In this document: positions 1,594 to 5,991 of the stretch, in pieces
How the letters are laid out: the number at the start of each line of letters is the position of its first letter
Numbering within the stretch: the stretch's first letter is position 1
Assembly (NCBI RefSeq): GCF_017498065.1
Contig: NZ_JAGDFX010000007.1
Location: forward strand, 124,001-188,000
Length of the DNA stretch: 64,000 bases
Reading direction: 5' to 3'
From: Oceanisphaera pacifica
GTDB taxonomy: Bacteria; Pseudomonadota; Gammaproteobacteria; Enterobacterales; Aeromonadaceae
Position numbers and translations under genes: made by a program
Notes under the pieces: generated by a model
What the model was told of the DNA's origin: nothing
Databases searched by the model: none
The model's input: the letters and a program-made list of their open reading frames with translations, nothing else

Positions 1594-1667
1594 AACTCTA
1601 ACATATCATTGTTTTTTGCTTAACTTACCTGCCCTTTCTCCAAATGAAAACCCGATGATGGTGATTG

Positions 1668-3455
1668 ATGGATAAAAAAAATCAACAGACGCCCATTTTA
1701 CAGTGGTCTGACATAATAAAAATGATGCAAAAACGCCGTTCAGCACTCATTTATGCCCATATTTTTGCGTTATGCGGCGTATTACTGTCTGTTCCTGTGC
1801 CTTTATTAATGCCATTGCTCGTTGATGAAGTTTTACTCGATAGTCCTGGGCGCTTGCTTGAAGGCTTAAGCTGGTTGTTGCCTTCAAGCTGGCAAACCGG
1901 TGTCGGCTTTATTTTAGCCGTATTAGTGATCACTCTCTTGCTTCGCTTTTTATCATTAGTCTTTAATATTATTCAGGGGCGCCAATTTGCTCGCGTTGCC
2001 AAGCAGTTGACGTTTCAGATCAGACAATTATTGGCGCGTCAGCTCTCTCGTACTCCGCTACGTTCTTTTGAGTCTGTAGGCGCAGGCAGTGTCAGCTCTC
2101 ACTTTGTGACCGATGTAGAAACCTTAGATAAATTTTTAGGGGAAACCTTAAGTCGCTTACTCATTAGTTTGCTAAGCGTCATAGGGACCGCCATCGTTCT
2201 ATTATTACTTAGCTGGCAGCTGGGGTTATTTATTTTGCTGCTTAACCCAGTGGTGGTGTATTTTTCGAGCCGATTAGGGGCCAAGGTTAAACATTTAAAA
2301 CGCAACGAAAACAGCGCCTTTGAACTGTTTCAACAAGCCTTAATAGAAACCCTAGATGGTATTCACGAAATACGCGCCGCTAATCGCGAGCGTCACTATC
2401 TACTGCGGGTAACGGATCGCGCCCGTGGCGTTCGTGACAGTGCCATTGATTATGCTTGGAAGAGTGAAGCCGCGGGGCGGGCCAGCTTTTTACTGTTTTT
2501 ATCGGGAGTAGAGCTATTTCGAGCCACCGGCATGATAATGGTATTATATACCGAGCTGACCGTTGGCCAAATTTTTGCCGTGTTTAGCTATCTTTGGTTT
2601 ATGATGGGCCCGGTACAAGACTTGCTCAATATGCAATATTCCTTTTATGCCGCCACTGCTGCGCTCAAACGCGTCAACACCATGTTATCTCTAGGTGACG
2701 AGCCCGAACAACAAGGCACGAGAGATCCTTTTGTCGATGCGACTACCTTGCCGATCACAGTAGAAAACGTCAGTTTTTCTTATAACGGTGAGCGCAAAAT
2801 TTTGGATAATGTGAGTTTACACATTAAGGCAGGCGAAAAAGTGGCCTTAGTCGGTGCCAGTGGCGGTGGCAAATCGACTTTTATTCAACTGTTACTGGGC
2901 TTGTATCCCGTTGATGACGGTATTATCCGCTTTGGTGGTATTAGTAGTCATGAAATTGGCTTTCCTACCATACGTGAGCATATCTCCTGCGTATTACAAG
3001 ACCCCGTTTTATTTAATGACACTATCGCGGCTAATTTAAGCTTGGGCGATGAACATGACGACACCGCCTTATGGCAAGCATTAACCGTGGCTCAATTAGA
3101 TGATGTCGTCGCCAATATGGACCAAGGGCTCAATACCCAAGTAGGTCGACGAGGCATTAAATTATCCGGTGGGCAAAAACAGCGGTTGGCCATTGCGCGC
3201 ATGGTACTTAAAAATCCGGCCATTGTTATTTTAGATGAAGCCACTTCAGCACTCGATACAGACACAGAAAGCAAATTACACGTCGCTTTATCTCGCTTTC
3301 TCCAAGGGAGAACCACGTTAATTGTGGCACATCGCTTAAGCTCGGTGCGCCAAGCCGATCGGGTATTGGTATTTGAAGACGGTAAGATCAGCCAATCTGG
3401 TACCCATTATGAGCTATTAGCGCAAGATGGCTTATACCGGACCTTGTATTCTTAA
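1668..3455 (+). CDS. ABC exporter, fused permease and ATPase (MsbA/type IV fold)
   Basis: This is a half-transporter of 595 residues. An N-terminal six-helix exporter membrane domain (about residues 20-320) is followed by a C-terminal nucleotide-binding domain (about 350-590). The ATPase shows Walker A GASGGGKS near 396-403, a Q-loop in VLQDPVLFND, signature LSGGQ near 499-503, Walker B VILDEATSALD and the switch histidine in VAHRLSS. No peptidase or accessory domain is seen, so the substrate is unknown; lipids, peptides or drugs are all possible. The ATG at 1668 is chosen over an in-frame TTG at 1665. It lies 113 bases upstream of the permuted TAXI lipoprotein on the same strand, so co-transcription is possible but not shown. 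Confidence 0.88.
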   Translation: MDKKNQQTPILQWSDIIKMMQKRRSALIYAHIFALCGVLLSVPVPLLMPLLVDEVLLDSPGRLLEGLSWLLPSSWQTGVGFILAVLVITLLLRFLSLVFNIIQGRQFARVAKQLTFQIRQLLARQLSRTPLRSFESVGAGSVSSHFVTDVETLDKFLGETLSRLLISLLSVIGTAIVLLLLSWQLGLFILLLNPVVVYFSSRLGAKVKHLKRNENSAFELFQQALIETLDGIHEIRAANRERHYLLRVTDRARGVRDSAIDYAWKSEAAGRASFLLFLSGVELFRATGMIMVLYTELTVGQIFAVFSYLWFMMGPVQDLLNMQYSFYAATAALKRVNTMLSLGDEPEQQGTRDPFVDATTLPITVENVSFSYNGERKILDNVSLHIKAGEKVALVGASGGGKSTFIQLLLGLYPVDDGIIRFGGISSHEIGFPTIREHISCVLQDPVLFNDTIAANLSLGDEHDDTALWQALTVAQLDDVVANMDQGLNTQVGRRGIKLSGGQKQRLAIARMVLKNPAIVILDEATSALDTDTESKLHVALSRFLQGRTTLIVAHRLSSVRQADRVLVFEDGKISQSGTHYELLAQDGLYRTLYS

Positions 3456-3568: not shown

Positions 3569-4576
3569 ATGTTGAACACACAACAACGCAGGCTGAGCGC
3601 TTTTATATTCATACTGTTAGGCCTCAGTGGCTGCGATACCCCGAACAACAATATCAATATTGCTCTTGGGCCTGACGCGAGCACCACGCAACAATTGTCT
3701 CAGCAAGTATTGAATAGTTATGGGGTAAATAACGATGACTATAATGCACATTTTTTACCCTTTGATAAGGCCTTAAAGGGGCTACAAGATGGCAGTATAG
3801 ACATATCTATGTCATTTTTAGGCTTACCCACCAATGGTATTAAAAGCTTACAAGCCGCCACTGGCGATGTCACTTTACTCAGCTTACCCGAGGAAGTTAT
3901 CGCCGATATTGAACAACACAGTGATTATCAACGCTTTACTATTCCCACAAGTAGCTATCAGTTTTTAACCAAAGAGGTGTCAACATTAACCGCCTACGCG
4001 GTATTAATGGCTAACACCCAGACGATTAATGACCAAATGGGCTACCAGCTAGCACGTATTATGTATAATGCCACTTTGGCACCCTTACCCCATGCTCAAT
4101 CTCACTTTTTAAGTTTAAAATATGCACTTGATGGTGGCAGTCACCTCCCGATTCACCCCGGTGCCAAACGCTTTTATGAAGAGCAAGGGTTAACCGTCAC
4201 TCTGCCCGTTGCCCAATTAAGTGCCGCAGGAGCAAAGCAAGAATTTATTTTTGGTACCGGTAGCCAAGGAGGCACCTATTATCCACTGGGCGGTGAATTA
4301 ACCACCCGCTGGAATGAACAACTTCCTAGCGTTAACTTTACCAATGTGGCCACCCAAGCCTCGATAGAAAACCTGCATAGTTTAAGAGAAGGCAAGATGG
4401 ATCTTGGCATGACGGTGAATGTATCTGCGGTTAACGCCCTACAAGGCAAAGGCGCTTTTGCTGAGCAAGCTGTTGAAAATATCGCTTTTATTGGCCAACT
4501 TTATCCCGAGGTCTTTCAAGTCGTCACCCGCAAGCGTGGCGACTTATCCTCTTTTGCTGATATTAAACGCCAATAA
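3569..4576 (+). CDS. TAXI-family lipoprotein with circularly permuted lobes
   Basis: Predicted lipoprotein of 335 residues. A signal peptide ends in lipobox LSGC with the lipidated Cys at 22. TAXI solute-binding proteins normally start with a GxGSxxGxYxPxG lobe and end with LPIPLHPGAxRFYxExG. Here the order is reversed. Residues about 29-208 match the usual C-terminal half, from GPDASTTQQLSQQVLNSYG to LPIHPGAKRFYEEQGL. After a linker (about 209-224), residues 225-335 match the usual N-terminal half, with FGTGSQGGTYYPLGG, ATQASIENL and LYPEVFQVVTRK, stopping at SSFADIKRQ. That is the hinge strand that normally leads into the other lobe, so both halves look complete and this is not a truncation. 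No TRAP membrane subunits lie nearby, so a transport, sensing or scavenging role is open. The ligand is unknown. Confidence 0.85.
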   Translation: MLNTQQRRLSAFIFILLGLSGCDTPNNNINIALGPDASTTQQLSQQVLNSYGVNNDDYNAHFLPFDKALKGLQDGSIDISMSFLGLPTNGIKSLQAATGDVTLLSLPEEVIADIEQHSDYQRFTIPTSSYQFLTKEVSTLTAYAVLMANTQTINDQMGYQLARIMYNATLAPLPHAQSHFLSLKYALDGGSHLPIHPGAKRFYEEQGLTVTLPVAQLSAAGAKQEFIFGTGSQGGTYYPLGGELTTRWNEQLPSVNFTNVATQASIENLHSLREGKMDLGMTVNVSAVNALQGKGAFAEQAVENIAFIGQLYPEVFQVVTRKRGDLSSFADIKRQ

Positions 4577-4816
4577 AACCAAGTAGGTGTTATTGTTTTT
4601 ATTTTTGTTCGCGATAAAGGTCAAACAAAGGCGCCTTGTACAACACACTACAGGCGCCCTCACATAAAGAATAAGTATCTACCCGCTAGCAAAACTCATT
4701 GACTATTCACTAAAAAATAAAACACCAACCACACATAGCACCATGAAACCCGCACTCAAGTTGCCATCCCAGTAGCATTATCTGCTGCTTCGCACTAACT
4801 TTATTGGGTTCTGGGG
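4577..4816. other. Intergenic stretch before the his promoter, with one hairpin
   Basis: No credible gene is seen. An inverted repeat of GGCGCC arms with inner TGTA/TACA pairing lies at 4630-4658. It has no T-run after it, so it is at best a weak terminator for the upstream gene. The reading frame of the upstream lipoprotein does not continue with TAXI-like sequence after its stop codon. Confidence 0.5.
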
Positions 4817-4845
4817 TTGGCAAATAAGGTTGGGCTTGTTAATGT
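4817..4845 (+). promoter_or_regulatory. Putative sigma-70 promoter of the his operon
   Basis: TTGGCA at 4817-4822 and TAATGT at 4840-4845 are separated by 17 bases. The -35 box is good and the -10 box weak. Start of transcription would fall near 4852, about 30 bases before the leader peptide, which fits a his-type leader. It is called from spacing and context only. Confidence 0.4.
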
Positions 4846-4883
4846 GGACCTAGACCTATTAGAGAGACAGGCCACACTATTTT

Positions 4884-4928
4884 ATGAATTTCCTGCAAAG
4901 CACCAAGCACCATCATCATATTGATTAG
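4884..4928 (+). CDS. hisL: His operon leader peptide
   Basis: A 14-codon reading frame encodes MNFLQSTKHHHHID, with four consecutive histidine codons at 4908-4919 (CAC CAT CAT CAT) and a TAG stop. It lies about 160 bases upstream of hisG and directly before alternative RNA hairpins. This is the arrangement of enterobacterial hisL, where ribosome stalling at His codons reports the level of charged tRNA-His. The E. coli leader has seven His codons; this one is shorter. The ribosome binding site is weak (AGGC about 12 bases upstream). Confidence 0.85.
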   Translation: MNFLQSTKHHHHID

Positions 4929-4929
4929 A

Positions 4930-5021
4930 CTTTCAGAATAATATTCTGGAAGGCTTTCGCTTGGCGGCTTCCAGCAGGATAAAAGATATTACCCTCGGAA
5001 GCTTTGCTCCGAGGGTTTTTT
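4930..5021 (+). promoter_or_regulatory. His attenuator: competing hairpins and terminator
   Basis: The terminator is CCCTCGGA (4992-4999) pairing with TCCGAGGG (5008-5015), followed by six T at 5016-5021. A second hairpin pairs CTGGAAG (4946-4952) with CTTCCAG (4968-4974). The segment CTTTCAG (4930-4936) can also pair with CTGGAAG, with one G-U. GCTTCC (4967-4972) can pair with GGAAGC (4997-5002), which would break the terminator stem. These mutually exclusive pairings next to a four-His leader are what a transcription attenuator needs. The exact low-histidine and high-histidine folds were not computed. Confidence 0.85.
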
Positions 5022-5088
5022 CGTATTATTGGCATTATAAATTTTTATCTATCTGTATTAACACGTAACACACAAGGACTATCGCACC

Positions 5089-5991
5089 ATGACTCTGGAT
5101 CAAACTCGTTTACGTATCGCAATTCAAAAATCTGGCCGTTTAAGTAAAGAGTGCCAAAAGATGCTGAAAGGCTGTGGTGTCAAGCTTAACTTGCGCGAAC
5201 AGCGCCTGATTGCCCACGCCGAAAACATGCCCATCGACTTATTATTAGTGCGTGATGACGATATTCCTGGCTTAGTGATGGACGGTGTGGTTGATTTGGG
5301 CGTAGTCGGTGAAAACGTGCTAGAAGAAACCGTGATGGAACGCCAAGCCCAAGGCGATGCGGCCGAATATAATGTGTTAAAACGCCTCGATTTTGGCGGT
5401 TGCCGCTTATCCTTAGCCGTGGCGCAAGAGTTGGACTATCAAGGCGTGAAAAGCTTAGAAGGCAAGCGCATTGCAACCTCCTACCCTTGGTTATTAAAGC
5501 GCTACATGGACAGCCAAGGCGTAAAATTTAAAAGCGTTATGCTCAATGGTTCGGTTGAAGTGGCGCCGCGCGCCGGTGTCGCCGAGGCCATTTGTGACCT
5601 TGTTTCTACCGGTGCTACCTTAGAAGCCAATGGCTTGGTTGAAACTGATGTTATCTTCCGCTCTAAAGCCGCCCTTATTCAAAGCGCCAATGCGCTGCCT
5701 GCTAGCAAGCAAGCGGTGGTCGACACCCTATTGCCGCGTATTCAAGGCTTACAACAAGCGCGCGAAAGCAAGTATATTATGCTGCACGCCCCTAAAGATC
5801 GCCTAGAAGAAGTGATTGATTTACTGCCCGGTGCCGAGCGCCCCACCATTATGTCATTAGCAGGGGAAAGCAATCAGGTAGCCATTCACATGGTAAGCAG
5901 CGAAGACATGTTCTGGGAAACCATGGAAGGCTTAAAAGCGTTAGGCGCATCCTCTATCTTGGTGCTGCCTATCGAGAAGATGATGGAGTAA
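5089..5991 (+). CDS. hisG: ATP phosphoribosyltransferase (long form)
   Basis: HisG catalyses the first, committed step of histidine synthesis, joining ATP and PRPP to phosphoribosyl-ATP. At 300 residues this is the long form, which carries its own C-terminal regulatory domain for histidine feedback and needs no HisZ. The N-terminal part has [11 protein letters not shown] and [13 protein letters not shown]. The catalytic lobe has the PRPP-loop region [14 protein letters not shown]. The C-terminal ACT-like domain (about 225-300) ends in [11 protein letters not shown]. It is the first structural gene after the attenuator, with AAGGA about 12 bases before the ATG. Confidence 0.97.

Follow-up and report, generated by a model that had tools for sequence, protein, structure and literature searches.

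The question raised by this locus was whether a reading frame in which the two halves of a TAXI-type solute-binding protein stand in reverse order encodes a circularly permuted binding protein and, if so, where its chain was cut, from which lineage it came and which transporter it serves. The frame lies in the window, the 64,000-nucleotide stretch of Oceanisphaera pacifica DNA analyzed here; it is open, starts with ATG, and encodes a lipobox, GLSGC, with Cys22. Taken as a whole, with its origin, spread, fold, and inferred function, the product is very probably a circularly permuted TAXI-type TRAP solute-binding lipoprotein. The features of the locus, with the evidence for each, are as follows:

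3569..4576, + strand: permuted TAXI solute-binding lipoprotein gene, 335 aa (open frame, profiles, full-length collinear relatives)
3569..3634, + strand: lipoprotein signal peptide, residues 1-21, and lipidated Cys22 (sequence, conservation)
3656..4192, + strand: canonical C-terminal half, now first, residues 30-208, from the GSGT-equivalent strand to HPGAKRFYEEQGL (Pfam/TIGR match, alignment with 8s4j chain 118-298)
3977..4015, + strand: second hinge strand, residues 137-149 (DSSP on the model; equivalent to VcGluP 255-267)
4193..4240, + strand: linker between the old C and N termini, residues 209-224 (family comparison)
4241..4567, + strand: canonical N-terminal half, now second, residues 225-333, from GTGSQGGTYYPLGG to ADIK (profiles, structure-sequence alignment)
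4481..4531, + strand: first hinge strand, residues 305-321 (DSSP on the model; equivalent to VcGluP 116-131)
4577..5088, + strand: interval to hisG, occupied in sister species by a TRAP_fused permease and a GcvA-like LysR gene and here only by the his leader (tblastn, Rfam)
4904-5024, + strand: histidine operon leader, Rfam RF00514, 51.5 bits (Rfam)

Two profiles each matched the 335-aa protein in two stretches, Pfam NMT1_3 (PF16868) with 187.6 bits against a cut-off of 27 and NCBIfam TRAP_TAXI (TIGR02122) with 184.8 bits against a cut-off of 84.35. The best stretch, corresponding to positions 113-289 of 289 in the Pfam profile or 144-320 of 320 in the TIGR profile, fell at residues 30/31-207, and the N-terminal half of the TAXI profile followed the C-terminal half, at residues ~223-333. 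In HMMER alignments with the solved TAXI structures 1us4, 8u79, 8s4j, and 9ibo, residues ~28-206 corresponded to the C-terminal half and residues ~222-331 to the N-terminal half, and the two matched stretches adjoined within these structures at the DLKGK/RV position. The canonical order, N-terminal half and then C-terminal half, was not that of the window protein, which was placed in a permuted subfamily. The swapped order and the completeness of both halves, claimed in an earlier note on this DNA, were borne out by the agreement of the Pfam and TIGR matches with the HMMER comparison, and on the basis of these alignments the chain order is shown to be rotated. Both the profiles and the solved-structure sequences assigned the protein to TAXI (cluster F) and not to the cluster B sugar-binding fold.

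Full-length, collinear permuted proteins were found in 10 of the 23 species of the genus, including that of the window, the other nine being 54-59% identical to it (genus members by named records L051-L053, L066, and L118: Oceanisphaera/Oceanimonas/Zobellella). A scan of 84,980 genomes with two short exact peptide patterns, which sets a lower bound, recovered 68 named loci, a few of them from the same genomes, with the same order at full length and 44-59% identity. The loci belonged to the families Bacillaceae/Caryophanaceae, Halomonadaceae, Aeromonadaceae, and Alcaligenaceae (genera Halomonas/Vreelandella/Billgrantia/Bisbaumannia, Sporosarcina, Psychrobacillus, Oceanobacillus, Virgibacillus, Bhargavaea, Lentibacillus, Salinibacillus, Castellaniella, and other Alcaligenaceae). 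The permuted protein occurred in 14 of 397 genomes from the order of Aquibacillus, and no copy except the window's own was detected among 369 sampled gammaproteobacterial genomes; the distribution is therefore patchy. All 49 permuted members compared matched PF16868. Cys22 was invariant in the 10 genus members and at least 90% conserved across the 49. The linker varied little in length throughout the permuted family, with 20-22 aa from the GL to the GTGS motif, and T209, V210, and A215 within it were invariant in the 49 members.

That two broken TAXI genes were joined here by chance, or only in the assembly, and that the product is nonfunctional is vanishingly improbable. The window copy does lack a linked permease, but the same order was read at full length and free of stops in ~80 loci from several families, with the near-constant linker. 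Fusion by chance was ruled out by these conserved full-length relatives and by the purifying selection described below.

A model of the permuted protein, obtained with AlphaFold2 from 49 permuted sequences, was two-lobed, with a pLDDT of 91.2 and a pTM of 0.85, compared to 87.4 and 0.81 for the control model of a canonical TAXI protein from a Clostridia record. Two alpha/beta lobes and the two long hinge strands (residues 137-149 and 305-321) were present in the prediction, and its secondary structure was a rotation of that of the control: canonical E34...E116-132 and H140 corresponded to permuted E225...E305-321 and H331, and canonical E147...E253-265, H270, and H312 to permuted E29...E137-149, H155, and H197. 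Since Foldseek is a sequential aligner and blind to permutation, the contrast with the canonical control was used instead of the match itself. Seven TAXI chains came first for the canonical model, with TM scores of 0.75-0.81 (normalized by query length) over ~295 columns, whereas the best TAXI matches of the permuted model spanned only 207 columns with a TM score of 0.42, a contrast to be expected when a permutant is submitted to a sequential aligner. By prediction, the permuted protein is thus shown to close into the two-lobe TAXI fold.

The position of the cut was read from VcGluP, in which the hinge strands are 116-131 and 255-267, domain 1 comprises 29-115 and 268-328, and domain 2 comprises 132-254 (PMC11574862); VcGluP numbering is the chain numbering plus 28. 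The last aligned residue of the window protein, 331, corresponded to VcGluP 144 and the first, 28, to VcGluP 146, so the cut lies within domain 2, ~13 residues beyond the first hinge strand. On this mapping both hinge strands are uninterrupted and domain 1 forms a single continuous stretch of the permuted protein. Of the clean permutation at the hinge that the earlier note had proposed, the permutation is real and complete, but the cut is in domain 2 and not at the hinge. The lipid anchor, likewise, was not placed at the hinge as had been supposed: with the break past strand 116-131 and inside 132-254, it now sits on domain 2 instead of domain 1. The chain would run from the lipid-anchored N terminus through domain 2 and the second hinge strand to the old C-terminal part of domain 1, and then through the linker to the old N-terminal part of domain 1, the first hinge strand, and a short end of domain 2. 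We infer that the permutation shifted the anchor from one domain to the other and left the pocket unaltered; that the moved anchor altered closure or the coupling to a partner is a matter for speculation. Three permuted proteins from Alcaligenaceae (L106, L109, and L110) carried a plain signal peptide without a lipobox, and their Bacillota relatives were lipoproteins. The lipid anchor is therefore not obligatory to the design.

Ordinary TAXI proteins (TIGR02122/PF16868; TtGluBP 1us4/1us5 and VcGluP 8s4j) share with the window protein homology in both halves, the motifs GTGS..G.YY, LYPE, and HPGA.RFYEE.GL, the two-lobe fold, likewise predicted here, and, through the relatives of the window protein, the link to a TRAP_fused permease. 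According to PMC11574862, which cites Roden et al. 2023, many of them are lipoproteins too. The permuted protein differs from them in the swapped halves, the new termini within domain 2 (VcGluP 144/146), and changes in the pocket. Closest among known cases is Treponema pallidum TpMglB-2 (Tp0684), assigned to "Type Ic / Cluster Bc," a naturally permuted ABC glucose-binding lipoprotein with relatives in several genera. Its ligand binding and conformational change are normal, and its authors also raised the speculation that a tether favours the altered topology (PMC4990184). Like the window protein, it is permuted in nature, is a binding lipoprotein, and has a wider family. TpMglB-2, however, belongs to cluster B, has strands shifted within the N lobe, and gained a fourth hinge crossing, whereas the window protein is a cluster F TRAP protein that was rotated within domain 2 and needed no extra crossing. 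Another TAXI protein with an unusual architecture and a lipid anchor is BP0403 (TAXI-GltS) of Bordetella pertussis, in which an N-terminal domain was added and the partner is GltS; its TAXI domain is standard and superimposes on VcGluP (PMC12344293). In the literature searched, no paper joined circular permutation, TRAP transporters, and TAXI, and the word stem "permut" was absent from the two recent TAXI papers, in keeping with the earlier note, to which no described permuted TAXI protein was known. No naturally permuted binding protein of a TRAP transporter appears to have been described before the window protein. With permuted binding proteins already known from TpMglB-2, what is new is a permuted TAXI subfamily with its parent lineage and partner identified.

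The parent lineage was found among canonical-order TAXI proteins from the order of Aquibacillus, the halves of which reached 61-68% identity with their counterparts in a permuted Bacillaceae protein. In these canonical sisters ~2 residues separated the matched halves, at the point where the permuted protein is cut. In the careful binding-protein tree, for which permuted sequences were first rotated into canonical order, all 34 permuted rows grouped in a single clade (97/92) within canonical Bacillota; its sister was one canonical group (95/83), and a second such group lay further out. The permease tree, free of permuted sequences, gave the same branching and united the partners of the permuted proteins in one clade (99). 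Because the two trees agree, the canonical order came first and was changed to the permuted one a single time, while the permease kept its place. These phylogenies show that the permutation arose in one event from a canonical TAXI protein of Bacillaceae and that the permuted protein, together with its TRAP_fused permease, later reached Halomonadaceae/Aeromonadaceae and, separately, Alcaligenaceae. Inside the Bacillota rows, the Halomonadaceae/Aeromonadaceae clade (98/93) stood apart from the Alcaligenaceae pair, which points to two transfers.

Tandem duplication followed by partial loss is the usual route to circular permutation, and the event may have proceeded in this way; as for a duplicated intermediate, no tandem TAXI gene stood beside the canonical or permuted loci read. 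One locus (L098) had a distant canonical TAXI gene two genes upstream. The states before and after the event are both extant: orthologues in canonical and in permuted order exist today, their pockets are nearly the same, and their permeases are orthologous. They constitute a natural experiment on how chain order and the choice of the anchor-bearing lobe bear on ligand capture and on docking onto a secondary transporter, and the permuted protein is a ready permuted scaffold for biosensors.

A permease gene lay directly downstream on the same strand at 78 of 85 permuted loci (a few genomes counted twice), with a median gap of 85 nt. The earlier note had asked for further members and whether their neighbours are shared; the 68 named loci supply the former, and this TRAP_fused permease is the shared neighbour. 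The permease matched TIGR02123 at 715.7 bits and has a DctM domain, but of DUF3394 just the initial ~45 residues; it is therefore without most of the periplasmic "claw" that PMC11574862 describes for VcGluQM. A GcvA-like LysR regulator gene was usually next after the permease in Aeromonadaceae and Halomonadaceae. The neighbouring genes gave no clue to the ligand, none of them being conserved beyond the permease and, in Gammaproteobacteria, the LysR gene. A Virgibacillus permuted TAXI gene (L089, 4370-5365) had no TRAP permease downstream and a 996 aa frame next to it, an orphan outside the window's genus. At one canonical sister locus (L174, 1623-5097), the permease was split into frames of 474 and 201 aa with a 400 aa frame between them, which suggests an inserted element.

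It is conceivable, if rather unlikely, that the permutation was an adaptation for membrane docking, in which the short-tethered anchor on domain 2 would fix the orientation toward a permease without the globular DUF3394 "claw," the opposite lobe would be held at the membrane compared to ordinary TAXI lipoproteins, and orphans would have been re-used as sensors.

Alignment with VcGluP indicated that Ser40, Tyr45, Glu125, and Gly203 of the pocket are kept and that Gln93 is replaced by Val, Tyr200 by Gly (Ser in the window copy), and His123 by Tyr. The glutamate-type pocket (Gln93, Tyr45, Tyr200, and Glu125 in VcGluP numbering) was thus incomplete, with Gln93 and Tyr200 replaced, and mutation of Gln93 costs VcGluP 990-fold in affinity (PMC11574862). 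Glutamate was rejected as an unlikely ligand in view of the Val and Gly/Ser replacements, and judging from these residues the ligand is probably another compound; a small carboxylate is a guess by analogy with the wider family. Canonical sisters carried the same substitutions, with pocket residues essentially alike in sisters and permuted members, and the pocket was therefore largely inherited through the permutation. The protein would act as a Venus flytrap that captures a small carboxylate-type ligand in the pocket of its canonical parent, not a glutamate pocket, and passes it to the linked permease.

The window lacks this partner. In five sister genomes the permuted TAXI gene was followed by the permease gene, the LysR gene and, in most, hisG; in the window and in four further genomes (G011, G013, G018, and G021), hisG followed the permuted gene directly, with no permease or LysR gene. 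No relic of either was detected by tblastn in 4577-5088, and the his operon begins at 5089, after the orphan gene and the leader. The cognate permease was absent from the whole genome of the window, where the best match, 42% identical, was found on another contig in an 884 aa frame (G000:C33) adjoining an ordinary TAXI gene. The linked permease is lost in the window's species. The orphans are still under purifying selection, with a dN/dS of 0.12 for the pair G013/G021 (dS 0.31) versus 0.065-0.098 in operon-bearing species; synonymous sites were saturated in comparisons with the window copy itself.

Loss of the permease and regulator, together with the long branches of three orphans in the careful tree (0.47, 0.68, and 0.84 versus 0.12 for the operon-bearing L051), would fit a relic on its way to being lost, but the frame and signal peptide were intact in five orphan species and the dN/dS of the orphan pair was near that of operon-bearing species, which leaves such decay quite improbable. 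The orphan has probably kept its role as a binding protein, either supplying an unlinked TRAP permease or acting as a sensor. The former possibility, delivery to the one remaining TAXI-type TRAP permease that the genome encodes, the 884 aa frame, is put forward tentatively: that permease is present, and of the four other orphan species three had similar long-frame permeases (42-43% identical to the lost permease), but it adjoins a canonical TAXI protein of its own and is just 42% identical to the lost cognate. Somewhat less likely, the orphan has turned into a sensor of its ligand and passes the signal to a membrane protein other than a transporter. The gene was kept under selection after the permease was lost, and the pocket of the window copy has Ser and Phe versus Gly and Ile/Leu in most other members; against this, no conserved partner gene stood beside the orphans except the his operon. 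With its cognate permease gone and its longer branch, the window copy may now differ in function from its relatives. The gene directly upstream in the window (1665-3455, + strand), which did not hold this place in the sister loci read, encodes an MsbA-like ABC exporter of 596 aa (TIGR02203, 361 bits, below the cut-off).
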